From Saliphagus infecundisoli (GTDB taxonomy: Archaea; Halobacteriota; Halobacteria; Halobacteriales; Natrialbaceae), in assembly GCF_020177375.1 (NCBI RefSeq), contig NZ_JAIWHV010000003.1, positions 62,001 through 126,000 of the forward strand: 64,000 nucleotides of DNA, given 5' to 3'. The first letter of the stretch is position 1. Every line of letters starts with the position of its first letter. Under the pieces are notes generated by a model, which was not told the DNA's origin, ran no database searches, and was given only the letters and a program-made list of their open reading frames with translations. Positions 9,765 through 30,802 of the stretch are shown in pieces. The position numbers and the translations under genes are program-made.

Positions 9765-11117
9765 ATGACCGACGTCGAAGACAGCGAGTGGCGCGTGGGG
9801 ACGGCGACCCGGACGATCACCCCCGAGGAACCGATGCGGATGGCGGGCTACGGCGCCCGCGAGGAGCCGGCCGAGGGCACGCTCTCCGATCTCCACGCGC
9901 GGGCGGTCGCGATCGAGGACGACCGGGGCACCCGTTTCGTCGCGGTCGGATGCGAGGTGCTCGCGATCTCGCGGCCGCTCCACGCGGAGGTCACCGCAGC
10001 CTGCGAGGAGGAGTACGATCTCCCCCCCACCCACCTCCTCCTGAACGCCTCCCACACCCATTGCGGGCCGGTCTACCGTCGGCGCAAGACCGAGGTGTTC
10101 TCCCTCGACGAGGAGGAGCGAGCCCAGGCCGAAGAGTACCGCAAGTTCCTGATCGAGCACCTGATCGGCGTCGTCGGCGAGGCCCTCGAGGACCGCGAGC
10201 CGGCGACCCTCGAGTACAGCCACGCCAAGTGCGGGATGGCGATGAACCGCCGGATTCCCTTGGAGGAGGGGATCGGCTTCCAGCCCTACCCCGACGGGCC
10301 GGTCGATCACGACGTGCCGGTGCTGGTCGCCGAGAGCGTCGAGGGGGGCGAAAGCGAGAACGACGATGGAAACGGGGACGGCGACGTCCGGGCGATCCTC
10401 TTCGGCTACGCCTGCCACCCGACCTCGCTCTTTCGCCGGGAGTGGAGCGGCGACTGGGCGGGGTACGCGATGGACGAACTCGAAGAGGAGTATCCCGAAT
10501 CGACCGCCGTCTTCGTTCAAGGAGCCGGCGGCGACCAGAAGGCCTATCCCCAGCGCGAGCTCGAGCTGACGAAACACTACGGCAAGTCGCTGGCGACCGC
10601 GGTCCGGGGTGCCATCATCGCCAAACGCCGGACGGTCAACGGACCGCTTCGGTGTGTCAAGGAGGAAGTCGATCTCGAGTTCGAGCGCCCGCCGAGTCGC
10701 GAGGAACTCGAGTCCCGGGTCGCCGATGACGACCTCGATCGGTACGTCCGCCGGCACGCAGAGCACCTGCTGGGCGAACTCGACGAACAGGGCGAACTCC
10801 CCCGAACGCATCCCTACCCGATCCAGGCGATCGGCTTCGGGGGCGACCTCACGATGGTCGCGCTGACCGGCGAGGTGCTCGTTGGCTACTCGCTTGCACT
10901 CAAGGAACGCCTGCCGGGGCCGCTGTGGGTCGCGGGCTACTCGAATAACTACATGACGTACATCCCGACCGTCGACGACCTCTACGCGGGAGGCTACGAG
11001 GCCGACCGGTTCGTCCACCTCACCGAACTTCCCGCGAAGTTCGATCACAGCGTCGAGGACCGGGTGCTCTCGACGGCGACCGCGCTCGCCCGGCGGGTCG
11101 GGCCGCCCGGCGAGTAG
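9765..11117 (+). CDS. Neutral ceramidase-like hydrolase, paralogue 1
   Basis: A 450-residue protein resembling the N-terminal domain of neutral/alkaline ceramidases, Zn-dependent amidases. Visible blocks are VGTATRTITPEEPMRMAGY at the N-terminus, the NASHTHCGP metal motif, FGYACHPT, and FVQGAGGDQ. No signal peptide is seen, so it should act in the cytoplasm. A CCGTTTTTGTCC element about 28 nt upstream supports the start. It heads a same-strand series with an aminotransferase and two Gfo/Idh/MocA genes. A paralogue at 29453-30802 stands before the same two Gfo types. True ceramide is an unlikely substrate in an archaeon; an N-acyl or amide-linked sugar is a guess. Confidence 0.75.
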   Translation: MTDVEDSEWRVGTATRTITPEEPMRMAGYGAREEPAEGTLSDLHARAVAIEDDRGTRFVAVGCEVLAISRPLHAEVTAACEEEYDLPPTHLLLNASHTHCGPVYRRRKTEVFSLDEEERAQAEEYRKFLIEHLIGVVGEALEDREPATLEYSHAKCGMAMNRRIPLEEGIGFQPYPDGPVDHDVPVLVAESVEGGESENDDGNGDGDVRAILFGYACHPTSLFRREWSGDWAGYAMDELEEEYPESTAVFVQGAGGDQKAYPQRELELTKHYGKSLATAVRGAIIAKRRTVNGPLRCVKEEVDLEFERPPSREELESRVADDDLDRYVRRHAEHLLGELDEQGELPRTHPYPIQAIGFGGDLTMVALTGEVLVGYSLALKERLPGPLWVAGYSNNYMTYIPTVDDLYAGGYEADRFVHLTELPAKFDHSVEDRVLSTATALARRVGPPGE

Positions 11118-11171
11118 TGTGTAGTCACCGGCCCCGGATGATTTAAGCACCGACCGGCCCACCATCCGCCA

Positions 11172-12392
11172 ATGCCGGAGGACCCGCCCGGAGCGATCGA
11201 CCGCCTCTGTACCGACGCCGTCCGCGACTCGCCCGCCTCGCCCTACGACGCCTGGCGCGAGCTCTCTGCTACCCACCCCGAGGCGGTCCAACTCGGCGTC
11301 GGCTTCCCCTTTACCGACGCGTTTCCGACCGAGGAGCTGGCGGCGGCAACCAACGAAATCCTCCGCAAGGAGCCAGAAGCCCTCCAGTACGGCGGGAGCG
11401 AGGCCGCCGACTCGCTCCCAGGAGCGATCGCCGACCATGTCGGCCGGCGGGGGCTCGCGGTCGGGGCAGACGATCTGATCGTCACCGGCGGCGCGAGCCG
11501 CGCGATCGACACGATCGCGGACGTCTTCCTCGAGCCCGGCCGAGTCGTTTTCACCGAGGAGGCGACGTTCCCGAGCGCGGTGACGTACTTTCGCGACCAC
11601 GGCGCCGCGGTCGCCGGCTGTGCGCTCGACCGCGAGGGCCTCGACGTCGCGGCCCTCGGCGACGACCTCGCGCGGCGCGAACGCACGGGAGAGGATCTCC
11701 CGACGCTGCTCTATACGATCCCGACGTTCCAGAACCCGACGGGGACGACCCTCCCCGAGAAACGCCGCGAGGCGCTGCTCGACCTCGCCACGGAGTACGA
11801 CTTCGCGATCCTCGAGGACGACGCCTACGGCGCCCTGCGCTACGACGGCGAGAGCGTTCCCCCGCTGGCGGCGATGGACCGCGAGCGGCCGGGTCCCGAC
11901 CGGGTGATCCACGTCGGAACCGCCGCGAAGACGATCGCGCCGGGGGTGCGGATCGGCTGGGTGATCGCACCCGAGGCAGTGAGCGAGGAGATCGAGCGGA
12001 GACACGCCGGCGCGGCAAACAGCTTCGTCCGGAGCGCCGTCGCGCGGTATCTTGCCGAGGAGTCCTTCGAGGAGCGCGTCGCCAAACTGTGTGAGAGCTA
12101 CCGCTCGCGCCGGGACCACATGCTCGAGGCGCTCGAAGGCGAGATGCCCTCTCACATCGGATGGACCGAGCCCGACGGCGGCTTCTTCGTCTGGGTGACC
12201 CTGCCCGACGGGATAGACGCGGAGGCGATGCTTCCGACGGCGGCCGCGGCAGGCGTGATCTACATGCCCGGATCCGCGTTCTATCCGAACGAGGGCGGCG
12301 AGAACCGGCTCCGGATCTCCTTTAGCACGGGCTCGCCGGCGGAGACCGAGCGGGCGGTCGCGGCTCTGGCCCGGACGATCGAGAGTGCATGA
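11172..12392 (+). CDS. PLP-dependent aminotransferase, class I/II (2-aminoadipate type)
   Basis: A 406-residue fold-type I aminotransferase of the LysN/MocR-domain type. The cofactor region is present: the substrate loop YTIPTFQNPTG, the aspartate in ILEDDAYG and the PLP lysine in VGTAAKTIAPGVRIGW. The TATA-like GATTTAAGC about 28 nt before the ATG supports the start. It stands between the ceramidase-like gene and two Gfo/Idh/MocA genes. The second copy of this cassette (27180-30802) lacks an aminotransferase here. It probably transfers an amino group to or from a 2-oxo acid; the specific substrate is not visible. Confidence 0.87.
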   Translation: MPEDPPGAIDRLCTDAVRDSPASPYDAWRELSATHPEAVQLGVGFPFTDAFPTEELAAATNEILRKEPEALQYGGSEAADSLPGAIADHVGRRGLAVGADDLIVTGGASRAIDTIADVFLEPGRVVFTEEATFPSAVTYFRDHGAAVAGCALDREGLDVAALGDDLARRERTGEDLPTLLYTIPTFQNPTGTTLPEKRREALLDLATEYDFAILEDDAYGALRYDGESVPPLAAMDRERPGPDRVIHVGTAAKTIAPGVRIGWVIAPEAVSEEIERRHAGAANSFVRSAVARYLAEESFEERVAKLCESYRSRRDHMLEALEGEMPSHIGWTEPDGGFFVWVTLPDGIDAEAMLPTAAAAGVIYMPGSAFYPNEGGENRLRISFSTGSPAETERAVAALARTIESA

Positions 12393-12431
12393 AGACAACG
12401 CTTATCGCGCCGCCCTTCGTCGGCCCGGACG

Positions 12432-14524: not shown

Positions 14525-15799
14525 ATGACCGATACGCTCGCGATTCACGACGGACCGTCGGCGGTCACCGCGGCCGACGACGGGATATTCGACTGGCCGA
14601 TCATCACCGAGGAAGACGAGGAGACCGCCCTCTCCGTGCTCCGAGAGGGGCGGATGTCGGACACCGACATCACCAAACGATTCGAGGCCGAGTACGCAGA
14701 CTGGCAGGGCACCGAGTACGCGCTGGGCTACAACAACGGGACCGCCTCGCTGCAGGGCGCGATGTACGGCGTCGGCGTCGGCGTCGGCGACGAGGTCGTC
14801 GGCCCCACGATCACCTACTGGGCGGCGATGCTTCCCTGTCTGGAGCTGGGCGCGACGCCCGTCTTCGCCGACGTCGATCCCGAGACGCTCTGTGTCGATC
14901 CCGAGAGCGTCGCCGAGCGAGTCACGGAAAACACCGCGGCGATCGTGGTCGTCCACAACTACGGCCACCCCGCCGACATGGACGCGATCATGGAGATCTC
15001 CCGCGACCACGATATTCCCGTGATCGAGGACGTCTCTCATGCCCACGGCGGCCAGTATAACGGAGAGGCCCTGGGAACGATCGGCGACGTCGGCGCGATG
15101 TCGATGATGGCCCGGAAATCGTTCGCCATCGGCGAGGCGGGGATGCTCGTCACCGACGACCACTCGATATACGAGCGCGCGGTCGCCTACAGCCACTACT
15201 CCAGACACTCCGAGGTTCTGGAGAGCGAGGACCTGGCCAAATACGCGGGGCTTCCCTTCGGCGGGAAGAAACACCGAATGCACCAGATCAGTGCCGCCGT
15301 CGGTCGCGTTCAGTTAGAGTACTACGACGAACGGATGGCCGAGATACAGAAGGCGATGCATCGCTTCTGGGACCGACTCGAGGACGTCCCCGGACTCAGA
15401 CCCCACCGGATCGAGAGCGAGGGGAGCACGATGGGCGGCTGGTACGCCCCGAAGGGGATCTACGTCCCCGAGGAACTCGACGGATTGCCGGTCGAACGGT
15501 TCGCCGAGGCCGTCGTCGCCGAGGGCTCGCAGTGTCGGAAGGGCTGTAACTCGGCGCTCCACGAACACCCACTGCTCGATGACGCCGATATCTACGGCCA
15601 CGGCACCCCGACCCGGATCGCCAACGCCGCCCGCGACGTCCGCGAGACCGACACCGACCTCCCCGCGGCCGAAGGGATCCAGGAGCGGTGTTTCGCCGTT
15701 CCCTGGTTCAAGCAGTACCGTCCCGAGGTCATCGACCAGCACGCCGCGGCGTTTCGCAAGGTCGCCGAGAACCACGAGGCGCTCCTCGAGACGGCCTGA
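14525..15799 (+). CDS. DegT/DnrJ/EryC1/StrS-family aminotransferase
   Basis: A 424-residue PLP aminotransferase of the sugar aminotransferase family, which converts keto-sugars to amino-sugars or the reverse. Seen are VIEDVSHAHGG (Asp contacting the pyridine ring), SMMARKSFAIGEAG (PLP lysine position in the usual S-x4-K-x4-GE context) and the C-terminal EGSQCRKGCN region. The start is the ATG at 14525; the TATA-like CCTATATCC at 14475-14483 is about 46 nt upstream, which implies a leader of roughly 20 nt, unlike most neighbours. Placed between Gfo/Idh/MocA genes that make keto-sugars, it may aminate or deaminate one of them. Confidence 0.85.
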   Translation: MTDTLAIHDGPSAVTAADDGIFDWPIITEEDEETALSVLREGRMSDTDITKRFEAEYADWQGTEYALGYNNGTASLQGAMYGVGVGVGDEVVGPTITYWAAMLPCLELGATPVFADVDPETLCVDPESVAERVTENTAAIVVVHNYGHPADMDAIMEISRDHDIPVIEDVSHAHGGQYNGEALGTIGDVGAMSMMARKSFAIGEAGMLVTDDHSIYERAVAYSHYSRHSEVLESEDLAKYAGLPFGGKKHRMHQISAAVGRVQLEYYDERMAEIQKAMHRFWDRLEDVPGLRPHRIESEGSTMGGWYAPKGIYVPEELDGLPVERFAEAVVAEGSQCRKGCNSALHEHPLLDDADIYGHGTPTRIANAARDVRETDTDLPAAEGIQERCFAVPWFKQYRPEVIDQHAAAFRKVAENHEALLETA

Positions 15800-15894: not shown

Positions 15895-16899
15895 ATGACC
15901 GGAGACACGACGATCGGAATCGTCGGCCTGGGCACGATCGGCCGGATCCACGCCGAGCGCCTGGCCGACCTGGGGGCCGACCTCGCCGGCGCCGACCTCG
16001 ATCCGGAGGCCCGCGAGGCCTTCGCCGCCGAGTTCGAGGCTCCGACATACGAGGACCACGAGGCGCTGCTCGAGGCGGGTGTCGACGCGGTCGTGGTCGG
16101 CGTCCCGAACCGGGTCCACGAGGAGGTCGCCGTCGACGCCCTTGAGGCCGGCGGCGACGTCCTGCTCGAAAAGCCCCTCGCTCACTCCGTCGAGAGCGCC
16201 GAGCGGATCGCGCGGGTCGCCCGCCGCTCCGAGGGGTTTTGTACCGTCGGCTTCACGATGCGGTACTCGGGGTTGACCGAGCGGGTCGTCGACCTCCGCG
16301 AGTCGGGCCGGTTCGGCTCGATCTCACACGTGAGCGTCGACTACCTCCGCCGCGGAGGCATCCCCGGCGGCGGACGGGGCTGGTTTACGAATCCGGATCT
16401 CGCCGGCGGCGGCGTCCTGATGGATCTCGGCGTCCACGTCATCGATCTCGCACTCTTCGTCATGGGCTACCCCGCAGTCGAGGAAGTGAGTGGACGGGTC
16501 CGTTCGGAGTTCGGCGACTACGACGTCGAGGATTCGGCGACGGCCCTGTTGCGCTGTGAGGGGGGTCGGACCGTCTCCGTCGATACCTCCTGGCACGGCA
16601 CGTCGGAACCGTCCCAGGACTGCGTGATCCGGGGGACCGAGGCCGGCACGGCCTTCGCCGTCACCGAGGACGACCTGACGCTCGTCGATGCCGACCCCGA
16701 CGCCGGAAGCGAGACGATCGCCGTCGAGACCGGCGACATGCACCTCGCGGAGGACCAGACCTTCCTCGAGAGCGTCGCGGGCGAACGCGAGCCCGCCGAA
16801 ACCGTCGAGGAGGCCCTGACCGTCCAGCGGGTGATCGAGGCGATCTACGAGTCGAGCGAACGAGGGAACGCGGTCGTCGTCGAGGGGGGAAACCGATGA
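15895..16899 (+). CDS. Gfo/Idh/MocA family oxidoreductase
   Basis: A 334-residue member with a full GIVGLGTIGRIH nucleotide loop, VLLEKPLAHS and the GGGVLMDLGVHVIDLALF helix. The start ATG at 15895 follows GGTTTTTATGCC centred 28 nt upstream, indicating a leaderless transcript. It overlaps the downstream TIM-barrel gene by 4 nt (ATGA), so the two are coupled. The pair is a likely functional unit: sugar oxidation followed by isomerisation or elimination, as in inositol routes that combine an IolG-type dehydrogenase with IolE/IolI-type barrels. Confidence 0.88.
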   Translation: MTGDTTIGIVGLGTIGRIHAERLADLGADLAGADLDPEAREAFAAEFEAPTYEDHEALLEAGVDAVVVGVPNRVHEEVAVDALEAGGDVLLEKPLAHSVESAERIARVARRSEGFCTVGFTMRYSGLTERVVDLRESGRFGSISHVSVDYLRRGGIPGGGRGWFTNPDLAGGGVLMDLGVHVIDLALFVMGYPAVEEVSGRVRSEFGDYDVEDSATALLRCEGGRTVSVDTSWHGTSEPSQDCVIRGTEAGTAFAVTEDDLTLVDADPDAGSETIAVETGDMHLAEDQTFLESVAGEREPAETVEEALTVQRVIEAIYESSERGNAVVVEGGNR

Positions 16900-17660
16900 A
16901 CGTCGGCCTCTGTACGATCTCCGGCAAGGAACGGGGAGTCGAAGAGGTGATCGACCTCGCCGCGGACGTCGGCTACGACGGCGTCGAGATCTGGGGGAAA
17001 GACCACGTCGCCGATACCGACCCCGAACGGATCGCCGAGCGGGCAGCCGACGCCGGTCTCGAGATCCCGACGTACGGCTCCTATCTCCGGTGTGGGAGCG
17101 AGGAATTCGACGACGAACTGAGCGAGAAACTCGCCATTGCCGAGGGGTTGGGTGCCGACATGATCCGGGTCTGGGCGGGCAGCCAGGAGTACGGCGACCA
17201 CGACGAGGGTCATTGGAAGCAGGTCGTCGCCGACCTCGAACGGGTCACCGAGGCTGCATCCGACCGCGGCCTCTCGGTGACCGTCGAGAAACACGCGAAC
17301 ACGGTGACGAACGATTTAGAAGGCGCCCGCCGGCTGATCGAGGCAGTCGACCACGAGTCCTGCGGGCTCAACTATCAACCCGGCTTTTCGATCCCCGCCG
17401 CCGAACTCGAGCGGGAGGCCCGGGCTCTGGAATCGATCTCGAACCAGCTTCACCTCCAGGGAACCTACGAACGAAGCGGAAGCGAGCGGGCGCCCCTCGC
17501 GGAGGTGTACTACGACCTCGAGGCCGTCCTCGATCCCTTCGGCGATTTCGAGGGGTACGCCAACGTCGAGTTCGTGACCCAGGACCGCTCGTACCGGGAG
17601 GCGATCGCCGCCGACCTCGAGACGGTCCGGTCGCTGGTCAGCTACTCGCGTTCGGCCTGA
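16896..17660 (+). CDS. Sugar phosphate isomerase/epimerase-type TIM-barrel protein
   Basis: A 254-residue AP-endonuclease-2-like barrel beginning MNVGLCTISG. Family marks are GYDGVEIWG at the second strand, LSVTVEKHANT with a candidate metal Glu, the LNYQPGF strand, and HLQGTYERSG near the C-terminus. The start overlaps the stop of the preceding Gfo gene (ATGA). The 3' end overlaps the convergent CapA gene by 19 nt. Proposed to act on the keto-sugar made by its partner; no direct evidence of substrate. Confidence 0.82.
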   Translation: MNVGLCTISGKERGVEEVIDLAADVGYDGVEIWGKDHVADTDPERIAERAADAGLEIPTYGSYLRCGSEEFDDELSEKLAIAEGLGADMIRVWAGSQEYGDHDEGHWKQVVADLERVTEAASDRGLSVTVEKHANTVTNDLEGARRLIEAVDHESCGLNYQPGFSIPAAELEREARALESISNQLHLQGTYERSGSERAPLAEVYYDLEAVLDPFGDFEGYANVEFVTQDRSYREAIAADLETVRSLVSYSRSA

Positions 17661-18964
17661 GAGAGCAGTAGCTGGGCTTCCTCGGTGATCTCGGGCGTCC
17701 GGAGGTCCTCCGTCTCGCCGGTCAACACGGCTAGCGCCTCGGTCATCAGCCACCGGTGGGACTCCATCCTGACGACCGTAAGCAGGGTGAGGACCTCCCG
17801 GCGGCGGGCCTCGACGTCCCACAGCGGCCGCTGGGCCGCCGGATCGTGGGGGTTCGCCCGCGCCCGGGGGACGTTCAGCCCACAGCCGGTGTGGAGCCAG
17901 TTCGAGTACCGCTCGTAGAACAGCCGGATCGCGACCTCCTGCCAGTACGGTCTCGGGTTCTCGGCAGCGATTTCGGCGATCCGGCGGAGGTAGGCCAGAC
18001 GGTCGGCCCGGTCGTGGCTCCACTCCCGTCGCTCGGCCTCGCCGAAGGGGTGGACGACTCCCTCGACGGTCTCGATCGGTACCAGATCGATCCCGACCGG
18101 CTCGCTCCCTCGGAACTCGAGTTCGGCCACCAGTCCCCACGCGGTGTTCTCGGCGTCGGCCATGCCGTCGAACAGGAAGTTCCCGAGGCTATAACAGATC
18201 GCGCCTCCGCCATACCGTTCCCACCCCTGCGGGACGTGGGGGTGGTGGCCGATCACCACGTCGGCACCGATATCGACGAACTCCCGGAGGAGGTCCTGCA
18301 GTTCGGGCGCGGGGAAGGGAGCGTACTCGACGCCGGCGTGGACCATCGCGATGACCGACTCGTGCGCTCGATCCGCGTCCCGGATCGCCTCGCGGGCCCG
18401 CCGGTGGGCGAGCCAGGCCGCGCCCGCGCTCGCCTCCCCCGCGACGTTGAACTCCCGCTCGCAGACGTTGACGACGGCGACCGATCCCCCGCCGCGGACG
18501 ACTTCGAGTGGCTCGTACGCACGCTCGAAGTCGGGGCCGACGCCGACCGTCTCCAGGCCCTCGGCCTCGAGCGCTTCGACCGTCGATTCGACCCCCTCGG
18601 GACCGAAGTCGCCGACGTGGTTGTTCGCGAGGGTCGCAGCGTCGAACCCCGCCTCGGCGACCGCGGCGGGCGCTCCCGGCGGGTTCTCCTTCGTTGGGCC
18701 GCTCTTTGGGACCGGCTCTCCGTCCTCGCCGACGACCGGCGCCTCGACGTTGACGATCGAGTACGCTGCCGCACGGATCCGCCCGCGGATCGCGGGCGAG
18801 ATCGTTGTCTCCGCCGTCGGGGGCTTCTCGCGGGCGAGGGCGTAGTCGCCGGCGACGAGCATCGTCCACTCGTCGCTCGCTCCCGGGTCGTCTCCGAGTT
18901 CGCCGTCGGTTCCCAGGTCGATCCGTGGCGGATCCGTCTCCTCGCGACTCCCGTGTCGAGTCAT
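17642..18964 (-). CDS. CapA-family protein (poly-gamma-glutamate capsule synthesis type)
   Basis: A 440-residue protein of the CapA/PgsA metallophosphatase-like fold. It shows VAGDYALAREK, the NVEAPV strand, LANNHVGDFG, MVHAGVEY, the GADVVIGHHPHVPQGWE metal motif and SLGNFLFD, all characteristic of the family. The ATG at 18964 was chosen over an in-frame ATG at 18991 because the TATA element (18989-18997) lies 28 nt upstream of 18964. No signal peptide or membrane anchor is seen, so it is probably cytoplasmic, unlike bacterial CapA. It overlaps the convergent TIM-barrel gene by 19 nt. CapA-like proteins of this sort also occur in catabolic clusters; the function is unknown. Confidence 0.8.
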   Translation of the reverse strand: MTRHGSREETDPPRIDLGTDGELGDDPGASDEWTMLVAGDYALAREKPPTAETTISPAIRGRIRAAAYSIVNVEAPVVGEDGEPVPKSGPTKENPPGAPAAVAEAGFDAATLANNHVGDFGPEGVESTVEALEAEGLETVGVGPDFERAYEPLEVVRGGGSVAVVNVCEREFNVAGEASAGAAWLAHRRAREAIRDADRAHESVIAMVHAGVEYAPFPAPELQDLLREFVDIGADVVIGHHPHVPQGWERYGGGAICYSLGNFLFDGMADAENTAWGLVAELEFRGSEPVGIDLVPIETVEGVVHPFGEAERREWSHDRADRLAYLRRIAEIAAENPRPYWQEVAIRLFYERYSNWLHTGCGLNVPRARANPHDPAAQRPLWDVEARRREVLTLLTVVRMESHRWLMTEALAVLTGETEDLRTPEITEEAQLLLSQAERE

Positions 18965-23058: not shown

Positions 23059-23889
23059 TCAGCCGTCGCGATCGGTTCCCGGACGGGCGTTCGCGCCGTC
23101 GAACAGGTCCCCAGCGAGGTCGTCGTCGAGGGCGCCGCCGTACTCCGAGACCTCGAAGGCCTCGGCGTACTCGACCTCCCCGGAGAGCAGGTCCCCGAAG
23201 CGATCGGCCGCCTCCCGCATCTCCGCGAGCGAGGCGAGGGGATCGGTCTCGAGCCACGCGCGCCGGCGGTCGGGGTCGTCGGGGACCTCGCCGAGTCGAC
23301 CCGTGTTGTAGGGGAGCCACTCGTACACCTGGGACTCGTGGCAGTCGAGCATCGCGTACTTCCGGTCGACCATCTCGGAGGGGATCCGAACTGCGACGTC
23401 CGGGTCGAAGGGATAGGGTCGCTCGAAGGTGTCGAGCAGGTACGCGAACACCGGATTGGTGTCGAGGGCGGGCGTCCCCGGACAGACGTTCGGGACGGTG
23501 ACCATGTAGGCGGCGTCCCGGACGAGCTGTGAGGTGTAGCGGTGGTCGGGGTGGTAGTCGTTGGGCCGGTGTGTCAGAACGAGGTCGGGCGACAGCCGGC
23601 GGATCAGCCGGATCAGCCGCTCGCGGCGCTCGAGGGTCGGCCGGAGCCGACCGTCGGGCGCGTCGAGCACCTGATAGTCGATGCCGGCGATCTCGGCCGC
23701 CGCGGCAGCCTCGGCTTTCCGGCGTTCGACGAGTTCGATCCCGCCCTGTTCGTGGTGGCCCGCGCGCCCGTCGGTCGTCGAGACGAAGGTGACGTCGTGG
23801 CCCGCCGCCGCCGAGCGACAGGCGAAGCCGCCGGCGCGGATGTCGGCGTCGTCGGGATGGGCTCCGATAACGAGTACCGTCCTCTTCAT
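23059..23889 (-). CDS. PIG-L family LmbE-like deacetylase
   Basis: A 276-residue Zn-dependent deacetylase of the LmbE/PIG-L family, which removes acetyl groups from N-acetylated sugars or conjugates. The metal site is explicit: GAHPDDADI near residue 10 and the HPDHRYTSQ motif near residue 115, with TTDGRAG and THRPNDYHPDH flanking. Start 23889 has a TATA-like element about 28 nt upstream (GGTTTTCGG). It is the last gene of a minus-strand series with a TIM-barrel isomerase (gap 38 nt), the double hydrolase and two Gfo genes. This supports acylated amino sugars as the substrate class of the cluster. Confidence 0.87.
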   Translation of the reverse strand: MKRTVLVIGAHPDDADIRAGGFACRSAAAGHDVTFVSTTDGRAGHHEQGGIELVERRKAEAAAAAEIAGIDYQVLDAPDGRLRPTLERRERLIRLIRRLSPDLVLTHRPNDYHPDHRYTSQLVRDAAYMVTVPNVCPGTPALDTNPVFAYLLDTFERPYPFDPDVAVRIPSEMVDRKYAMLDCHESQVYEWLPYNTGRLGEVPDDPDRRRAWLETDPLASLAEMREAADRFGDLLSGEVEYAEAFEVSEYGGALDDDLAGDLFDGANARPGTDRDG

Positions 23890-23927: not shown

Positions 23928-24650
23928 TTAGACCAGCACCTCGGCGAACCGATCGACGGTCGCCGGCGGGTCCGCGCTGGTGCCGTGTTCGGCGACGACC
24001 CACTCCGCACCCGCTTCACGGCCCGCCTCGAGGCAGGCGTCGAGATCGACCTCTCCGGTGCCGTACTCGACGTGGTGGGTGTCGGGCGAGCCCGCGCGGG
24101 TGTCGGTGAGGTGAAGGAGCGAGAGGCGGTCGGCGTACCGTTCGATCAGGGAGAGGGGATCGACGCCCGCGTGGGCCGCGAGCCCGGTGTCGATCTCGAG
24201 ACCGACCCGGTCGTCGGTCGCCTCCGCGAGCAGGTCGAACGCGCTCTTCCCCTCGAGACGGTCGAACTCGAAGGTGTGGTTGTGGTAGTGGACCGTCGCG
24301 CCCTCGCTCTCGAGGCGGTCGGCGAGCGCTGAGAGGCGATTCGCGACCTCCTCGACGCCCTCGCGGCTCTCGAAGGCCTCCGGGTCGTGGGAGGGAACGA
24401 CGAAGCGGTCACAGCCGAGGTCGCCGTAGCTCTCGAGGACGCCCTCGGGATCGGACTCGAGGTCGTCGATGGAGACGTGGGCGCCGGCGACCGCGAGGTC
24501 GTGGAGGTCGAGCAGTTTCGCGACCTCGGCCGGCGCGTGACCATCGAGTCCCGCGAACTCGACGCCGTCGAAGCCGGCCCCGCCGACCCGGGAGATGGCG
24601 GGCTCGAGCCCCTCCCCGCGCAGCGTGTACAGTTGGACTGCCGTGTGCAT
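23928..24650 (-). CDS. Sugar phosphate isomerase/epimerase-type TIM-barrel protein
   Basis: A 240-residue AP-endonuclease-2-like barrel. It shows GFDGVEFAGL, VHYHNHTFEF with metal-type His and Glu, VGLEIDTGLA with Asp, LLHLTDTR and AEHGTSAD near the end, a complete set of the family's metal ligands. A TATA-like CGCTTTAGAC lies 27 nt before the ATG at 24650. It stands between the double hydrolase gene (upstream) and the PIG-L deacetylase. Likely isomerises a sugar or keto-sugar in the same pathway. Confidence 0.85.
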   Translation of the reverse strand: MHTAVQLYTLRGEGLEPAISRVGGAGFDGVEFAGLDGHAPAEVAKLLDLHDLAVAGAHVSIDDLESDPEGVLESYGDLGCDRFVVPSHDPEAFESREGVEEVANRLSALADRLESEGATVHYHNHTFEFDRLEGKSAFDLLAEATDDRVGLEIDTGLAAHAGVDPLSLIERYADRLSLLHLTDTRAGSPDTHHVEYGTGEVDLDACLEAGREAGAEWVVAEHGTSADPPATVDRFAEVLV

Positions 24651-24709: not shown

Positions 24710-27133
24710 TCACCCGTTTCGGGCGAGCCAGTCGAACACCCGGGCCCGTCGCTGGGGTTCGATCGCGGCGTGTTCGGGGATAGTCTCGTTGTGGAGGCGT
24801 GCCTCGTGGTAGTCGAACGAGAGGAGGTCCTCGGGCGCCCACACGTCGAAATTCCCCCCGGCGTCGTAGAGGTCGTACACCTCCCGTGCGGCTTCGGTAC
24901 ACCGGAGGACGTCCGCTTGAGGGTGGGTCCAGTCCATCGAGGGCGCGACCGCGAGCGCGGGACGGGGTGCGATCGAACCCAGGACCTCATCGAAGTCGAT
25001 CGGGGTTCTTCGGGGGGCGTCCCGGAAGTGGCCGAGGCGGGGCTGGAGCCCGTGGAGGTGCGAGAACCTCCCGATGACCGCGTTCTCGCGTTCGGTCTCG
25101 GCGTCGCTCCCCCGGAAGTGGGGGAGCCCACAGACCGAGGCGACGCTCCGGATCCGGTCGTCGAGGGCGGCGGCGTAGAGGGAGACCGTCCCGCCGAGCG
25201 AGTAACCCAGAAGCGAGATCCGTTCGGCGTCGACGAACTCGAGGGCGGCGAGGCTCTCGACGGCCGCGAGCGCGTCCTCGACGAACGCACCCATCTTCGA
25301 CCAGTCGGGGTGGCGCTCGTAGAACCCCTCGGCCTCCGTGATCCGGGTGCCGAATCCCGGCAGGTCGAAACAGCACAGGGCGAACCCGCGATCGATCGCC
25401 TCCTCGATCGGGACCTGTCCCCGCCCCGCGGCGCCGTAGCCGACGTTGTACGAGTAGGGATGGAGCCAGACGACGACCGGGTGGGGGCCGCTCTCCGCGG
25501 GGCCCTCGTCGCCTCCGTCTCGAGGGTAGTAGAGATCGGCCGAGAACCGTTCCCCAAAAGTATGGGACGGCGACAGCCAGCACTTGCCGATCTCGTCCGT
25601 GGATTCCGGTCGACCGATCACGTCGTGGCGATAGTCGGGACTCCCCCACCCCCGAAGGACGGTTCCGGTGTCGTCTTCGGGCACCATCGGCGCCCGCGGC
25701 GGTGCCTCGCCGAGGCTCCACTGGAGGCGCTCGCGGACCGCCGCTTCTTTTCGCTCCCACCCCGCGACGCTCTCGATGGGGCCGTCGTCTCCACCCTCGT
25801 CCGATCCAGCGAGAAGGAGGTCCTCGGGTCCGCGTTCGGGGAACTCGCTGGTGTCAAGGGGATGGGAGTCGGCCCACTCCTCGAAGGAGAACTCGTGATA
25901 GAGCCGCGTCGGGTCGTCGTACTCGCCGCGGTCGAACGCGCGATCGAAGAAGTCGAGGATCGCCTGGACGTCGCGGGTCGTTCTCGCATGTCTGCCCTCC
26001 CGGTACTGAAGCGCGAGGCCGTCGCCGGCCCCGAAAAGGTCGTACGCCGTCTTCGCAGACTCGTAGACCTTCTCGACGGCCCACCCGCTCGTCGTCCGCT
26101 CGTTTTTCGCGGTCTGGAGCAGGCACGCTCTGGGAGCGACGAGCGAGACCAGGGAGTTGGCGTCCACGAGTAATCGGTTCTCCCGGCCGACGAAGAAGCG
26201 CCACCGGGGATGAAACCAGCTTCGCCGAAGGCGGGCGTGAAGCGCCATGTCGCCCGCGTAGAAGTCGTCCCGGTCGAAGCGGGCGGGGACGGTCGCGCCG
26301 CTGCCGGCCGAACAGGGCGCGACCGCATCGATCCGCTCGTCGAAGGCGGCGGCGAGCAGCGACTGCTTGCCGTTTCGGGACGCTCCGGTGAGCGCGATCC
26401 GGTCGTCGTCCGCGTCGGGAAGGTCCTCGAGATAGTCCACCGCGCGGCTCGCGGCCCACGCGCGGCGGGCGAGCAGTTGGAAGTCGTATTCCTCGTACTG
26501 CTCGCCGTAGTCGGCGGCGTCGTCGCGGCCGTCGGCCGCGGCGTAGACGACGGCGAGAAACCCCCTGCGGACGGCCATCGCGGCCCAGTCGCGGTGGGTC
26601 CACTGCGTCATGAAGACGGGAAACGGGCCCTCGCCGTCGGGCACCAGGAGCCGGAGGTCGAGCGTGAGTTCCTCCCCATCGGGACCAAAGGAGAGACGGA
26701 CGTCCCGGACGGTTGCGCTTTCCGCCCTCCGGCGGTCGAGTTCGGTCGCCTCGACCTCGCCGGGAGCGGGGGGCATCCGTCCGTAGAGCCAGTGCTGGAG
26801 CTGGTGGCCGATCCGTTCGCGCTGATCGGCCCACTCTTCCCGGGAGGTGATCCGCGAGCCGTCGGCGAGGTTCTCGAGGGGGTCGGGAAGCGCGGCCGTA
26901 GCGGGCAGGGCCTCGAAATCGGGCGGCAGCTCTCCGGTACGCGCCTGCCATTCCTGCCAACTCGCGTCCCGATGGGAAACCCGGGGATCCGATCCGTGTT
27001 CGTCGGCCTCAAGCGCGAGCAACGGGCGGAGCTCCTCGAGATACGCCTCCCGGCGGGCGCGTTCGTCGGGCGAATCGGGCTCGCCAGCGACCCGATCGGG
27101 GTGCAGCGGGTAGTCCTCGGGGGTCGGATACAT
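24710..27133 (-). CDS. Tandem alpha/beta-hydrolase protein (CE15-like plus second hydrolase)
   Basis: An 807-residue protein with two hydrolase halves. The N-terminal half resembles glucuronoyl esterases (CE15): nucleophile S252 in the GxSRxGK motif (TGASRNGKQS) and a candidate His near 382 (EGRHARTT). The C-terminal half has a second nucleophile S645 in GYSLGGT, with LHPYSYNVGYG before it and a His in the last 30 residues. Both halves therefore look catalytically competent. No signal peptide is seen. The start at 27133 has a TATA-like CGACTTTACTCC 27 nt upstream. It lies 46 bp downstream of a type B Gfo gene. A role in cleaving two ester bonds of an acylated sugar or uronate is inferred. Confidence 0.78.
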   Translation of the reverse strand: MYPTPEDYPLHPDRVAGEPDSPDERARREAYLEELRPLLALEADEHGSDPRVSHRDASWQEWQARTGELPPDFEALPATAALPDPLENLADGSRITSREEWADQRERIGHQLQHWLYGRMPPAPGEVEATELDRRRAESATVRDVRLSFGPDGEELTLDLRLLVPDGEGPFPVFMTQWTHRDWAAMAVRRGFLAVVYAAADGRDDAADYGEQYEEYDFQLLARRAWAASRAVDYLEDLPDADDDRIALTGASRNGKQSLLAAAFDERIDAVAPCSAGSGATVPARFDRDDFYAGDMALHARLRRSWFHPRWRFFVGRENRLLVDANSLVSLVAPRACLLQTAKNERTTSGWAVEKVYESAKTAYDLFGAGDGLALQYREGRHARTTRDVQAILDFFDRAFDRGEYDDPTRLYHEFSFEEWADSHPLDTSEFPERGPEDLLLAGSDEGGDDGPIESVAGWERKEAAVRERLQWSLGEAPPRAPMVPEDDTGTVLRGWGSPDYRHDVIGRPESTDEIGKCWLSPSHTFGERFSADLYYPRDGGDEGPAESGPHPVVVWLHPYSYNVGYGAAGRGQVPIEEAIDRGFALCCFDLPGFGTRITEAEGFYERHPDWSKMGAFVEDALAAVESLAALEFVDAERISLLGYSLGGTVSLYAAALDDRIRSVASVCGLPHFRGSDAETERENAVIGRFSHLHGLQPRLGHFRDAPRRTPIDFDEVLGSIAPRPALAVAPSMDWTHPQADVLRCTEAAREVYDLYDAGGNFDVWAPEDLLSFDYHEARLHNETIPEHAAIEPQRRARVFDWLARNG

Positions 27134-27179
27134 ACGGGGAGGCTCGGGGGCAGGAGTAAAGTCGTTTCGCCGGTCGCCG

Positions 27180-28154
27180 TCAGCGCTCGGCGACGGCGAC
27201 GGCCTCTCCGGTCTCGGCGGACTCGTAGGCGGCTTCGACGACCGCGACCGCGGCGAGGCCCTCGTCGGGCGTGATCTCGGGGTCGCGGCCCTCACGAACG
27301 CTCTCGACGAAGTCGGCGATCAGGCCGGCGTCGGCGTCGGGGCCGTAGAACGCCGTTCCGACGCCCGACTCGGTGGTATGGACGACCGACTGGTCGGTGT
27401 AGTCGATGGCGACCGTCCCCTCCTCGCCGACGAGTTCGAGGGTCGCGTCGCCCCAGGTGTGCCAGGCGTCGGGCTTGCTCCAGGAGCCGTCCAGGAGGAA
27501 GGGAGTGCCGTCTGCGAGTTCCATCGAGAGCACGTTGACGTCGTCGACCGCGATGTCGTGGAATCGGGTATCGACCTCGGCGTAGACCTCCGCGACCCGC
27601 CGGCCGGTGAGGTGGGTCGCCAGATCGACGATGTGGACCGAGTGGTCCATCACGGCGCCCCCGCCCGCGCGGTCGGGGTCGGCGAACCAGCCGCCGGGCA
27701 TCTTCCCCCGGTTGGTCCCCGACAGCGCCCGAAGCGACCCGATCGGGTCCTCGGCAAGGCGTTCGCGGGCGCGTACGGCAGGGCCACAGAACCGCAGGGG
27801 CATCGCCACGCCCGCGACGATCTCCGTCTCCTCCCAACAGTCGACGATGGCGCGGGCCTCGGCAACGGTGGGCGCCAGCGGCTTCTCACAGAGGACGTCC
27901 ACGCCCGCCATCGCGGCCCGCTCGAACCACTCGAGGTGGGAGGCGTTTGCCGCACAGATCACGCCCGCGTCGATCGACTTGAGGAGCCGGTCCGCGGGGA
28001 GATAGTCGGTCCCGTAACGGTCGGCGGCCTCTCGACCTCGCTCCTCGTCGCGGTCGGCGACGCCCACGAGTCCGCAGTCCTCGCGGCCGGCGAGCAGGCC
28101 GGCGTAGGCGTCGGTGTGGGAGTGCGCCGCCGAGAGGATCCCGACGCGGATCAC
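27180..28154 (-). CDS. Gfo/Idh/MocA family oxidoreductase, cassette type B (copy 2)
   Basis: A 324-residue member with the His-containing nucleotide loop GILSAAHSHTDAY, the VLCEKPLAPT lysine motif and the GGGAVMDHSVHIVDLA helix. It starts with GTG at 28154, overlapping the stop of the type A gene by four bases (GTGA); no ATG gives the conserved N-terminus. It matches the gene at 13415-14404 in loop, helix and the DVNVLSMEL strand, and is coupled to a type A partner in the same way. Confidence 0.84.
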   Translation of the reverse strand: MIRVGILSAAHSHTDAYAGLLAGREDCGLVGVADRDEERGREAADRYGTDYLPADRLLKSIDAGVICAANASHLEWFERAAMAGVDVLCEKPLAPTVAEARAIVDCWEETEIVAGVAMPLRFCGPAVRARERLAEDPIGSLRALSGTNRGKMPGGWFADPDRAGGGAVMDHSVHIVDLATHLTGRRVAEVYAEVDTRFHDIAVDDVNVLSMELADGTPFLLDGSWSKPDAWHTWGDATLELVGEEGTVAIDYTDQSVVHTTESGVGTAFYGPDADAGLIADFVESVREGRDPEITPDEGLAAVAVVEAAYESAETGEAVAVAER

Positions 28155-29107
28155 GCGACCACCTCCTCGGGCGCGACGGGTTCTCCGAGGTCGGCCGAGC
28201 GCTCGGCGGCCAGCGCCAGTCGGAGCGCCTCGATCGCCTCGTCGGGGCCGACAGGAGGTTCTTCGCCCGCCCGGAGCGTATCCGCGAACGCCTCGAGTTC
28301 TCGCCGGTAGCCGTCCCGCTCGAAGGCCCGATCGACGGTCTCGCCGTCGGCGGTCCACTCGCAGTACGGCGACTCCTCGTCGCTCGCGAACTCGACCATC
28401 CCGTCCGAACCGGCGAGCTCGAGTTCCGTCGTGAGGGTCCGGCTCTCGGGCTGGGCCCACGACCCTTCGACGTAGCCGACCGCGCCGTTCGCAAAACGGA
28501 GGGTCACGAACCCGTGTTCGGCGTGCTCCGCTCGCGTCCGGCGGGCGAAGACCCGCTCGACCTCGCCCCACACCCACCGGAGGTAGTCCAGGTCGTGGAT
28601 CGCCAGATCGACGAACAGCCCGCCGCTCTTCTCCCGGTCTCCGAACCACTCGCCCCAGTCGGGAAACGGCGAGAGCCGCCGCGCGCGGGCGACCCCCGGC
28701 TCTCCGATCTCGAGTCCGGCCGCTTTCCGGTATGCGGGCAGAAAGCGGACGACGTGGCCGACGCCGAGAGCCACCCCCGCGGCCTCGGCGACCGCCCGGA
28801 TCTCCTGGGCCTCCTCGATCGAGCCCGCGATCGGCTTCTCGAGGAAGATGTCGAGCCCGCGGTCGGCCGCGGTTCGAACGATCTCGAGATGGGTGTGGGT
28901 CGGGGTGCAGATATCGAGGTAGTCGATCTCCTCCCGATCGCAGAGGGCCTCGACGCCGGTGTAGGCCGCGCTCTCGAGGCCCAGGTCGTCGAGAAAACCC
29001 TCGAAACCGCTCGGCGAGGCGACCCCAGCGATCTCACAGTCCATCCCGTCGTACGCCTCCGCGTGGGTGCGGGCCATGAATCCGGCGCCCGCGATACCGA
29101 CTCGCAT
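28151..29107 (-). CDS. Gfo/Idh/MocA family oxidoreductase, cassette type A (copy 2)
   Basis: A 318-residue dehydrogenase with GIAGAGFMARTH, CTPTHTH, FLEKPIAG and GGLFVDLAIHDLDYLRW. Start 29107 is 26-27 nt from a minus-strand TATA-like TTCATAACCC. Closest relative in the window is 12432-13418. It is coupled to the type B gene through a GTGA overlap. The ceramidase-like paralogue lies upstream on the same strand (29453-30802), with a short fragment on the opposite strand between them where copy 1 has an aminotransferase gene. Confidence 0.87.
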   Translation of the reverse strand: MRVGIAGAGFMARTHAEAYDGMDCEIAGVASPSGFEGFLDDLGLESAAYTGVEALCDREEIDYLDICTPTHTHLEIVRTAADRGLDIFLEKPIAGSIEEAQEIRAVAEAAGVALGVGHVVRFLPAYRKAAGLEIGEPGVARARRLSPFPDWGEWFGDREKSGGLFVDLAIHDLDYLRWVWGEVERVFARRTRAEHAEHGFVTLRFANGAVGYVEGSWAQPESRTLTTELELAGSDGMVEFASDEESPYCEWTADGETVDRAFERDGYRRELEAFADTLRAGEEPPVGPDEAIEALRLALAAERSADLGEPVAPEEVVA

Positions 29108-29189
29108 ACCGGACCCACAGCCGGCGGGGTTATGAACGGTTCGGTGGCCGGCGAGCCTGCGGTGACGCTCGCCCGAGTACGACCGGTTC

Positions 29190-29456
29190 ATGTTCTACGC
29201 CGACGACGACCCCGCCGTTCGCGAACTCGTCGAGGCCGTCTCCGGGGCCGACGACCGGGGAGACGGCGGGCTCGTCGGCACCGACTGTGTCGGCGGCTCC
29301 GGCTCCGACCGGAAGACCTCGACGCGGTGGGCCCGCGAGACCCTGGGCGCGACCGGGCTCACCGTCGAGGCGACGCCCCACGGCTCGCCGCCGATGGAAC
29401 GCTACCGCCGAGCGGGCGCGAGCTTCGTCGAGGGGCTCGCCGCGGTCTTGGATTAG
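29190..29456 (+). pseudogene. Short fragment, possibly the tail of an M14-type carboxypeptidase
   Basis: An 88-codon frame opened by ATG at 29190, with an in-frame stop at 29163-29165 just upstream. The last 40 residues (RWARETLGATGLTVEATPHG then a helix ending FVEGLAAVLD) look like the C-terminus of a zinc carboxypeptidase or similar hydrolase, but no catalytic motif is present. No TATA is seen at the right distance. It ends sharing 4 nt with the convergent ceramidase-like gene (TTAG), which suggests an originally real gene end. Most likely a decayed remnant in the gap of the duplicated cassette; a genuine small protein cannot be excluded. Confidence 0.35.
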
Positions 29457-30802
29457 TACTCCCGGCGGTCGCACCGAACCCGGTCGGCGACCGCCGTCGC
29501 TCCACCCAGCACTCGCTCCTCGACGTCGGGCCGGAGCGGGCCCGGGAAGGCCGTTCGCCGAACGACCTCGCCGCCCTCGTACCCCCCTTCGTGGATCGCC
29601 TGTGCGGTCGGCACGTAGGTGAATTCCGCGTTCGTGTAGCCCGCGACCCAGACCGGCCCCGGAAGCCGCTCTTTGAGCTTCAGGGAATAGCCGACGAGGA
29701 CCTCGCCGCCCAGTCCCAGGAGCGTGAGGTCGTCGTCGAAGCCGAGCCCCTGGATCGGGTAGGGGTGTTCGGTTCGGATCTCGCCGTGCTCGTCGAGTTC
29801 GGCGAGCAGCGCCTCCGCGCGCACCCGGAGGTATCGTCGGTCGCTCTCGGCCATCTCCTCGAGTTCGGCCCTCTCGGGAGGGTCCTCGAAGGCGATCGGC
29901 CGTTCGACCAGCAGCGCCTGCAGGGGTCCCCGGACGGGCTTCCGACGGGACTCGACGGCGGCCCGGACCGCGGTCGCCGCCGTCTCGCCGTGACGTCTCG
30001 CGAGGGCGAGTTCCCGGCGCGGGTAGGGGTTCTGGTCGCCGGCAGCACCTTGGAGGAAGAGGGCGGTCGCCTCCGGATACTCGGATTCGATCTCCCGGCG
30101 GGCGAAGCCGGCCCAGTCGCCACAGTAGCGCTCGATCATGACCGTGGTGGTGTGACAGGCGTAGCCAAAGAGGATCGCCCGGATCCTCGTCTCCTCCTCG
30201 CTTCCTTCGTTTTCGTCTCTCTCCTCGCTCTCGGCGACCAGCACCGGCACCTCCGTATCGACCGGTCCGTCGGGGTTCGGGACGTGGGCAACTCCCTCGG
30301 GGACGGGCAGTCGCCTGTTCGTCCCGAACCCACACCGAGCGTGGCTGTAGGAGAGCGTCGCCGGTTCCCGGTCGTCGAGGGCCTCGCCGACGACTCCCAC
30401 GAGGTCGTCGATCAGCCGTTCGCGATAGTCGGCCGCGCGCTCGTGGTAGGGTCCCTCGTCGGCGTACATGTCGAGTTTGAACTCGCGGAACTCGGGCCCG
30501 CAGTGGGTGTGGGTCGCCGCGAGCAGTAAGGCGTCAGGCTCGAGGCCGTACGCCTCCGTACACCTCCGAGCGACCCGTTCACGGATCTCCCGGGTGACGA
30601 AGAGGAGTTCGACGCTGGCGACCACCGCGACCCGCTCGCCGTCGTCGATCGCCACGGCCCGCGCAGAGAGGTCGTGGACCTGCCCGTCCGCTGGCTCGTC
30701 GCGTTTGGCGAAGCCCGCCATCCACATCGGCTCTTCGGGGGTGATCGTCCGGGTCGCGGTTCCCACGTGCCACTTCTCGCCACCGTTCGCTGCCCGTGTC
30801 AT
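29453..30802 (-). CDS. Neutral ceramidase-like hydrolase, paralogue 2
   Basis: A 449-residue paralogue of the protein at 9765-11117. Shared blocks are VGTATRTITPEEPM, the AATHTHCGP metal motif, the NRRLPVPEG region, FGYACHTT, and LQGAAGDQNPYPRRE. No signal peptide is visible. A TATA-like AGACTTATCGG 27 nt upstream supports the start at 30802. It is the first gene of the minus-strand cassette (ceramidase-like, Gfo A, Gfo B, double hydrolase, TIM barrel, PIG-L). Between the two paralogues the His-rich metal site is conserved, so both are probably active Zn enzymes on related but different amides. Confidence 0.75.
   Translation of the reverse strand: MTRAANGGEKWHVGTATRTITPEEPMWMAGFAKRDEPADGQVHDLSARAVAIDDGERVAVVASVELLFVTREIRERVARRCTEAYGLEPDALLLAATHTHCGPEFREFKLDMYADEGPYHERAADYRERLIDDLVGVVGEALDDREPATLSYSHARCGFGTNRRLPVPEGVAHVPNPDGPVDTEVPVLVAESEERDENEGSEEETRIRAILFGYACHTTTVMIERYCGDWAGFARREIESEYPEATALFLQGAAGDQNPYPRRELALARRHGETAATAVRAAVESRRKPVRGPLQALLVERPIAFEDPPERAELEEMAESDRRYLRVRAEALLAELDEHGEIRTEHPYPIQGLGFDDDLTLLGLGGEVLVGYSLKLKERLPGPVWVAGYTNAEFTYVPTAQAIHEGGYEGGEVVRRTAFPGPLRPDVEERVLGGATAVADRVRCDRREY

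Follow-up and report, generated by a model that had tools for sequence, protein, structure and literature searches.

Related Pathways

The Ong pathway of Pseudoalteromonas is a route for oxidised chitin sugars running through OngB, OngC, OngD and KdgK (PMC9537276, PMC12017989). It has in common with the gene island of Saliphagus infecundisoli analysed here the predicted direct deacylation and PLP-dependent deamination of an unphosphorylated amino sugar, a member of the D-aminoacylase superfamily and a RidA protein, which was present when the island was tested as an Ong-like cluster. Meanwhile, the PLP lyase of the island is of the DgaE (SelA-like) or IlvA type and not a fold-type III OngC, and a pair of Gfo/Idh/MocA dehydrogenases and a ceramidase-fold protein are found in addition. 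The superfamily matches of the island amidohydrolase include PpOngB, but it lacks the Cys/His/His set of the OngB-type subtype V, and this D-aminoacylase-like protein bears an Asp at the aligned Cys metal-ligand position of AfDam.

A GlcNAc route with CE14, DGA, RutC and IclR has been predicted for the chitin clusters of Natrarchaeobius (PMC12343721). In both cases PIG-L/CE14, a DgaE-type lyase, RidA and IclR are clustered in haloarchaea; however, the island is without a chitinase (GH18) and has an added ceramidase-like gene, its dehydrogenase candidate is the GfoA-GfoB pair, and GH20, heparinase-like and sulfatase genes lie on its contig. The levoglucosan and 3-keto-glycoside pathways also combine Gfo dehydrogenases with TIM-barrel partners but, unlike the island, have no amine-handling enzymes and amidases; to our knowledge, an overlapping A/B Gfo pair has not been described for them. 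Haloarchaea also use amino-sugar/uronate polymers through glycosaminoglycan degradation at PL8-GH88 loci (PMC13260240), with PL8 lyases where the island has heparinase-II/III-like genes, and the words ceramidase, oxidoreductase and GH20 are absent from the text of that paper. Nothing relevant was returned by a literature search for a link between ceramidases and Gfo proteins.

Organization of the Two Cassettes

The window, the whole stretch of 64,000 nt that was analysed, comprises positions 62,001-126,000 of the forward strand of contig NZ_JAIWHV010000003.1 (assembly GCF_020177375.1), in a genome with 45 Gfo genes (Table 1). As claimed by the initial annotation, three gene families, ceramidase-like (CER), GfoA and GfoB, occur in both copies on opposite strands, with similarities far above chance: 54% identity over 438 aa between CER1 and CER2, 46% between GfoA1 and GfoA2 and 50% between GfoB1 and GfoB2, with 32% between GfoA and GfoB. 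The 4-nt A/B overlap in both copies and the His-containing loop of type B were likewise borne out, the latter reading LST-AHVHT in GfoB1 and LSA-AHSHT in GfoB2, where GfoA has a G.GFMA loop. The cassette had been called four-part; three parts are common to both copies, but copy 2 lacks an equivalent of the aminotransferase at 11172-12392. The copy-2 fragment was rejected as an aminotransferase remnant, since blastx matched only the open reading frame itself; the interval between CER2 and GfoA2 holds just one 88-aa ORF, unrelated to the copy-1 aminotransferase.

Table 1. Features of the window, with positions counted from its first nucleotide.
Feature	Position	Strand	Remarks
Amidase-signature enzyme, PF01425	5221..6678	+	Kept near CER1 in G195, G216, G175 and Halovivax L061
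Enolase-superfamily C-terminal domain protein (MR_MLE_C), possible sugar-acid dehydratase	6700..8145	-	Neighbour in G195, L061, L062
Second amidase	8239..9684	+	ATG at 8239, open frame; 62% identity to G175 amidase; directly upstream of CER1, same strand
CER1, neutral-ceramidase-fold protein, probable zinc amidase, type I (HTHCGP)	9765..11117	+	
Class I/II PLP aminotransferase	11172..12392	+	Absent from copy 2; in Halovivax L061, a 49% homologue stands immediately ahead of GfoA1
GfoA1, Gfo/Idh/MocA dehydrogenase, G.G loop	12432..13418	+	
GfoB1, Gfo/Idh/MocA dehydrogenase, AHVH loop	13415..14404	+	4-nt overlap with GfoA1
DegT/DnrJ/EryC1 aminotransferase	14525..15799	+	
GfoC, third Gfo dehydrogenase	15895..16899	+	Kept after GfoB1 in G195, G216, L062
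TIM1, AP_endonuc_2/xylose-isomerase-like TIM barrel	16896..17660	+	
CapA/PGA_cap-like protein (cluster c57)	17642..18964	-	Frame without stop; Pfam of cluster member
D-aminoacylase/OngB-superfamily amidohydrolase	19058..20650	+	
FAH-family hydrolase, 2,4-didehydro-3-deoxy-L-rhamnonate-hydrolase-like	20713..21447	+	Score below cut-off
DgaE-type PLP ammonia-lyase	21450..22655	+	
PIG-L/CE14-type deacetylase (BshB1-like)	23059..23889	-	
TIM2, IolE-like TIM barrel	23928..24650	-	
Two-domain alpha/beta hydrolase (glucuronoyl-esterase-like + AXE1/S15-like)	24710..27133	-	Partner of CER2-type genes in G278, G251, G175
GfoB2, AHSH loop	27180..28154	-	4-nt overlap with GfoA2
GfoA2	28151..29107	-	
CER2, neutral-ceramidase-fold protein	29453..30802	-	Type-I clade different from that of CER1; compared with G047/G264/G298, an insertion between GfoA2 and the IlvA-like gene
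Threonine-ammonia-lyase-like PLP enzyme, IlvA type	30850..32064	-	Upstream of CER2
IclR-type regulator	32183..32944	+	Conserved cluster, 10 genomes; homologous loci annotated IclR
RidA enamine/imine deaminase	34888..35262	-	TIGR00004 above cut-off

Ceramidase-Like Proteins

The CER proteins resemble the neutral ceramidases (PF04734; P. aeruginosa 2zws, human 4wgk) in how the catalytic domain is folded, and share with them four zinc ligands and the HTHxGP motif. PF04734 matches CER1 with 46.9 bits and CER2 with 32.3 bits (curated cut-off 32.1), and the structure model of CER1 (pLDDT 90) aligns with the neutral ceramidase 2zws over 390 residues (Z 39.3, rmsd 3.4). The predicted zinc ligands H97, H218, E370 and Y399 of CER1 are invariant among 34 sequences and align to H97, H204, E411 and Y448, the zinc ligands of the PaCD structure. 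Besides these similarities, the CER proteins have 450 aa and about 21% identity in the structural alignment, and they end at aligned PaCD residue 491 of 630, without the C-terminal domain. In the alignment to PaCD, the serine motif of neutral ceramidase (GNLSPN type) is absent and GDQK/GDQN stands in its place. Against the neutral ceramidase equivalog NF041649, CER2 reaches 32.1 bits with a cut-off of 1200 and CER1 is unmatched, and the gene context of CER is that of glycans, not lipids. Judging from its sequence and modelled fold, the ceramidase-like protein is a probable zinc amidase.

Bacterial genome collections were covered by one scan with the CER profile. Among the bacterial loci, a fixed CER partner was sought, but none of the families made up more than 6 of the 84 neighbours, a lack that counts against the catabolic model proposed below; a 3-keto-disaccharide hydrolase adjoins two bacterial CER genes.

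The GfoA-GfoB Pair

Both dehydrogenases possess Rossmann and C-terminal domains with Pfam matches above the cut-off, and the EKP lysine and the D...H catalytic pair are present (K92, D175 and H179 of GfoB1, invariant in A2). The GxGxx nucleotide loop is kept in GfoA and replaced by (S/T)A-AHxH in GfoB, which despite this alteration still has the Gfo/Idh/MocA fold and exceeds the Pfam cut-offs of the family. GfoA1 scores 92.7 bits against the levoglucosan dehydrogenase equivalog NF052479 (cut-off 650), and GfoA also resembles the archaeal UDP-GlcNAc 3-dehydrogenase model, with a score below cut-off.

The 33 haloarchaeal genomes with GfoB hold 39 such genes; for 34 of them GfoA is the gene immediately upstream, with the 4-nt overlap in 31 of those 34 pairs, and the two genes are probably translationally coupled. 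Their trees are congruent (mirror r=0.88, with 0 of 2000 permutations as high). The GfoB search outside the haloarchaea covered plasmids, and in Deinococcus the pair is located within sugar-ABC operons, overlapping by 1-4 nt. GfoA and GfoB are thus a co-evolving pair and an ancient, persisting unit, of which pair 1 and pair 2 are old paralogues.

Origin of the Second Copy

It was initially suggested that the cassette had been duplicated as a unit and then diverged, so that the trees of the three families should match, and that unrelated nearest relatives of the two copies would speak against it. GfoA and GfoB agree in this respect, their trees being congruent with each other, but the ceramidase gene does not: CER1 and CER2 fall into different clades (support 100/100 and 100/98) with genes of other genomes between them. 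The nearest CER2 relatives (G278, G251 and G175b) adjoin the hydrolase gene and have their nearest GfoB 226-330 kb away. In addition, the operon PIG-L-GfoB2-GfoA2-IlvA-IclR-GNAT-RidA of Natrononativus amylolyticus (G047) has no ceramidase gene, and two further genomes (G264 and G298) keep GfoB2-GfoA2-IlvA in operons equally free of it. A duplication of the whole cassette, although the gene order and overlaps of both copies are identical, is therefore highly improbable, and for the ceramidase gene it is refuted. The sequences indicate that CER1 descends with pair 1 and that CER2 belongs to another clade, the ceramidase gene having apparently joined the GfoA-GfoB pair separately each time. Copy 2 would have arisen from a ceramidase-type gene joining a pre-existing pair-2/IlvA operon rather than by copying of copy 1, and CER2 probably arrived together with its hydrolase partner.

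Co-Occurrence and Gene Neighbourhoods

All 17 haloarchaeal genomes with CER carry GfoB, compared to 33 of 391 overall (Fisher 5e-21; genus level 1e-8), a strong functional linkage. However, CER is inessential to the GfoA-GfoB pair, because 16 of the 33 GfoB genomes are without it. The DgaE-type ammonia-lyase is present in all 17 CER genomes and in 31 of 33 GfoB genomes (Fisher 4e-20). In 21 of 33 genomes PIG-L is found no more than 12 kb from GfoB, where about 0.3 would be expected, most such genomes having one or two PIG-L copies; RidA and an ammonia-lyase are each found within the same distance in 16 of 33, and TIM2-type genes occur near GfoB in 14 of 33.

In the CER genomes, these genes are usually clustered with PIG-L deacetylase, RidA, FAH and IclR genes, and for type-I CER also with GH20, heparinase-like genes and sulfatases. 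A PLP enzyme is a recurrent neighbour of CER, being DegT for type I, a class III aminotransferase for 7 of 9 of type II and IlvA for three of type III, and such a neighbour is also seen at several bacterial loci. GH20 and heparinase-II/III-like genes are located about 50 kb or less from CER in 7 of 9 type-I CER genomes; in S. infecundisoli they are 41-48 kb from CER1, beyond the window. The annotated islands of Halomontanus, Natronococcus and Natronosalvus hold subsets of GH20, heparinase, sulfatases, PIG-L, DgaE, D-aminoacylase, CER and Gfo pairs. The proposed metabolic unit holds insofar as the three families are functionally grouped, but the suggested scheme, in which an amide is cleaved and two coupled sugar oxidoreductases then act, is plausible and yet incomplete, as PLP ammonia-lyases or aminotransferases, RidA, PIG-L deacetylase and FAH hydrolase also recur.

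Proposed Pathway and Alternatives

With modest confidence, we favour the reading that both cassettes belong to one haloarchaeal island for the non-phosphorylative catabolism of N-acylated amino sugars, whose probable source is a sulfated polysaccharide akin to glycosaminoglycans, and that the ceramidase-like protein acts as a zinc amidase. What was computed here are the homologies, the fold, the conservation of the zinc ligands, the gene pairing, the co-occurrence and the clustering, while substrates, reaction order and the assignment of enzymes to positions are what we infer. The sugars would enter by an ABC importer and lose their amide-bound acyl groups to metal-dependent amidases, namely PIG-L/CE14, the D-aminoacylase-like protein and the ceramidase-fold protein, the last of which may serve an acyl group or position unserved by the others. 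The exposed amine would then be removed by the DgaE or IlvA-type ammonia-lyase aided by RidA, or by a DegT, class I or class III aminotransferase. GfoA and GfoB, presumably NAD(P)-dependent, would oxidise and reduce sugar intermediates, most simply with one step that oxidises C1 to give the aldonate and another that reduces or oxidises a keto form, and a 2-keto-3-deoxy acid could finally be cleaved through the FAH-type hydrolase. Chitin itself is unlikely as the direct substrate, since the GH18 chitinases of the genome (on contigs C66 and C11 only) and their PIG-L genes sit on other contigs. Weighing against the amino-sugar model are also the Asp in the D-aminoacylase-like protein, the GfoB genomes without CER and the distance of the GH20 and heparinase-like genes from CER1; in addition, several TIM-barrel proteins fit an oxidation-elimination scheme equally well.

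In such a scheme, a glycoside or anhydro-sugar would pass through oxidation, beta-elimination, hydration and reduction by the action of GfoA, a TIM-barrel protein and GfoB, following the pattern of the levoglucosan and 3-keto-glycoside pathways, with the ceramidase-like protein as an accessory amidase. For levoglucosan, a pathway of four steps has been established (PMC7676230), and the clusters join two Gfo genes with IolE/xylose-isomerase-like TIM barrels; the sub-threshold levoglucosan dehydrogenase match of GfoA and the 3-keto-disaccharide hydrolase beside two bacterial CER genes point the same way. We nevertheless consider it rather unlikely, as TIM2-type genes are near GfoB in fewer than half of the genomes and the PLP ammonia-lyases, RidA, PIG-L and the adjacency of CER to PLP enzymes are left unexplained. 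That the genes instead supply a surface glycan with an amino sugar, made through Gfo oxidation, DegT amination and acyl transfer, is improbable: the likeness of GfoA to the UDP-GlcNAc 3-dehydrogenase, the DegT and AAC(3)/GNAT acyltransferases nearby and a flippase adjoining GfoA in Natronosalvus agree with it, but importers, sulfatases, GH20, heparinase-like genes, FAH hydrolase, ammonia-lyases and IclR regulators indicate catabolism, and no glycosyltransferases were recognised within the cassette.

True ceramidases or lipid amidases scavenging sphingolipid-like or N-acyl lipids would explain the fold and zinc ligands, yet we give this little credence given the GDQ-K/N replacement, the missing C-terminal domain, the low equivalog score and the glycan and amino-sugar genes around CER, where no lipid genes were recognised. 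Equally improbable as biosynthesis is mere co-location of unrelated sugar genes in a large catabolic island, despite a Gfo-rich genome and islands reshuffled between genomes, in view of the GfoA-GfoB pairing and of the CER-GfoB association, significant at genus level. Returning to amino-sugar catabolism, a wider but less probable reading takes the ceramidase-fold proteins shared by haloarchaea, Planctomycetota, Verrucomicrobiota and Acidobacteriota to be carbohydrate de-N-acylases of a new class, so that much of PF04734 would act mainly on the amides of glycans and not of lipids. In this reading, GfoA-GfoB would be an amino-sugar dehydrogenase that always requires both enzymes, perhaps as a heteromer, and that has been kept in two domains of life.

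The island provides a testable answer to the role of 'ceramidases' in organisms without known ceramide, as well as a named candidate, GfoA-GfoB, for the step that the 2025 prediction of haloarchaeal amino-sugar breakdown assigned to a glucose dehydrogenase of broad specificity. Moreover, it indicates sulfated amino-sugar polymers as a food of haloarchaea, besides the PL8 loci reported in 2026.

Ceramidase-fold proteins and paired dehydrogenases

The window (bases 62001-126000 of contig NZ_JAIWHV010000003.1, C33) belongs to a haloarchaeal genome of 4.53 Mb with 45 genes for Gfo/Idh/MocA dehydrogenases (Gfo). Both ceramidase-fold proteins, CER1 and CER2, match PF04734 and are 54% identical, and identity between copies is 46% for GfoA and 50% for GfoB, compared to only 32% between GfoA and GfoB. 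The initial annotation, which placed these families in both copies of a cassette, is borne out, as are the 4-nt overlap at both GfoA/GfoB junctions and the unusual histidine-containing loop of GfoB, an AHxH motif replacing the glycine-rich loop. The proposed fourth shared part is not: the aminotransferase is confined to copy 1, and no relative of the copy-2 "fragment" was found.

Features of the window
Feature	Position	Strand
Amidase gene beside CER1	5221-6678	
Complete amidase gene, between enolase-like gene and CER1	8239-9684	+
CER1	9765-11117	+
GfoA1-GfoB1 (pair 1)	12432-14404	+
CapA/PGA_cap-like gene	17642-18964	-
Two-domain hydrolase	24710-27133	-
GfoB2-GfoA2 (pair 2)	27180-29107	-
CER2	29453-30802	-
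GH42-like, GH78-like and GH4-like genes beside a rhamnose-mutarotase-like gene (named from sequence impression only); looks like a separate rhamnoside/galactoside locus	40280-51233	

The structure model of CER1 (pLDDT 90, pTM 0.91) best matches neutral ceramidases (Z 39.3; next unrelated matches about 5). In a profile alignment, H97, H218, E370 and Y399 stand opposite the four zinc ligands of Pseudomonas neutral ceramidase, and they are invariant in 34 sequences, Planctomycetota and Verrucomicrobiota included. As this fold and its ligands are kept, CER1 probably acts as a zinc amidase of the neutral-ceramidase fold, but with another sequence at the serine motif and no C-terminal domain it should not be named a neutral ceramidase. 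Haloarchaeal CER proteins form three subfamilies, HTHCGP (type I), HTHYGP and HTHAGP (loci L001-L029 and L061-L140); in one tree, type I genes are interleaved with those of Planctomycetota, hinting at inter-domain gene transfer.

Distribution and history of the genes

Among 391 Halobacteria genomes, a CER1 relative (E<=1e-20) occurs in 17 and GfoB (E<=1e-45) in 33, presence or absence depending on the chosen thresholds. All 17 CER genomes carry GfoB (Fisher 5e-21, counted per genome), and the 10 CER genera all fall within the 18 GfoB genera of 87 (1e-8), kinship being handled by this genus count only. In the 20-kb loci read, where genes were called with a home-made codon model, GfoA immediately precedes 34 of 39 GfoB genes, 31 with the 4-nt overlap. 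The GfoA and GfoB trees agree (distance matrices, r=0.88; permutations never above 0.21), copy 1 clustering with the haloarchaeal genomes G175, G195 and G216, and copy 2 with some dozen genomes that form another set. Both pairs occur together in G175, G195 and G216, so the pair was duplicated long ago; G356 has relatives of both, one pair being interrupted. In Deinococcus plasmids, a GfoA-GfoB pair that overlaps by 4 nt or 1 nt and likewise carries the AHVHA motif follows sugar ABC transporter genes, and in a Mesobacillus foraminis plasmid (L202 5666-10249) a GfoB relative precedes ManNAc-6-P epimerase and ROK-family genes, a bacterial amino-sugar context. A third GfoB-like paralogue, with a STAHVN loop, is divergent beside GfoA-GfoB in eight genomes (L193-L197, L173-L175), accompanied by DgaE, RidA and PIG-L.

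The ceramidase gene, unlike GfoA and GfoB with their matching trees, has a history of its own. The CER1 clade (100/100) holds G175a (one of two CER genes of G175), G195, G216, Halovivax, YIM A00010 and Halomontanus, with genes adjoining or near pair 1, and the separate CER2 clade (100/98) holds G278, G251 and G175b, all adjoining a two-domain hydrolase gene. These three CER genes lie 269 kb, 226 kb and about 330 kb, respectively, from the nearest GfoB of their genomes. Natrononativus amylolyticus (G047) has PIG-L, GfoB2, GfoA2, IlvA, IclR, GNAT and RidA as at the right of the window, with no CER between GfoA2 and IlvA, and G264 and G298 likewise keep GfoB2-GfoA2-IlvA. Duplication of the cassette as one unit is rejected on these grounds, and CER2 was most likely inserted into the window locus. 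As G195 and G216 keep a long order with a single CER (CER1, GfoA1, GfoB1, GfoC, TIM1, D-aminoacylase, FAH, DgaE, PIG-L, GfoB2, GfoA2), the window layout reads as an older island with a later CER2/hydrolase acquisition. The CapA/PGA_cap-like gene recurs too: in G278, G251 and G175 it adjoins the hydrolase partner of CER2-type genes, and in G047 it is close to pair 2.

Gene neighbourhoods and proposed pathway

Within 12 kb of GfoB, a PIG-L deacetylase is found in 21/33 genomes (about 0.3 expected by chance; mostly 1-2 PIG-L copies per genome), RidA and a DgaE- or IlvA-type ammonia-lyase in 16 each, the TIM barrel TIM2 in 14, CER in 13, IclR in 9 and FAH in 8. DgaE occurs in 31/33 GfoB genomes against 58/358 others (4e-20, counted per genome). 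GH20 and heparinase-II/III-like genes lie 10-48 kb from CER in 7/9 genomes with type I CER, and annotated records of Halomontanus rarus, Natronococcus sp. CG52 and Natronosalvus amylolyticus contain islands with varying subsets of GH20, heparinase, sulfatase, PIG-L, Gfo pairs, DgaE, D-aminoacylase, CER and RidA. Elsewhere in the Saliphagus genome, a second GH20, heparinase-II/III-like, sulfatase and PIG-L set (C4:41253-60424) resembles that on C33:23035-34184, and GH18 chitinase genes (C11:790357-791872 and C66:151803-161937), which have separate PIG-L genes nearby, stand apart from the window island.

The PLP enzyme adjoining CER varies: DegT in G298, G264, G047 and several bacterial loci, a class III aminotransferase in 7/9 type II, IlvA in G046, G254, G345 and at window CER2, and a class I aminotransferase at window CER1. 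That differing classes adjoin the same amidase suggests an amine product, which a PLP enzyme would then remove. In the best model, one or more amidase steps on N-acylated amino sugars, the candidate substrates, would be followed by deamination by a PLP enzyme assisted by RidA, two redox steps by the Gfo pair and cleavage by a FAH-type enzyme, the positions attacked being likewise candidates. The main rival assigns the Gfo pair and the TIM barrels to oxidation, elimination, hydration and reduction, as in levoglucosan use (PMC7676230). Less likely are true ceramidase activity of the CER proteins, a role of these genes in glycan biosynthesis, and their pure co-location. The amidase-to-FAH model parallels the route predicted for Natrarchaeobius, for which CE14, DGA, RutC and IclR are named and no Gfo enzyme (PMC12343721), and it also parallels the Ong pathway (PMC9537276, PMC12017989).
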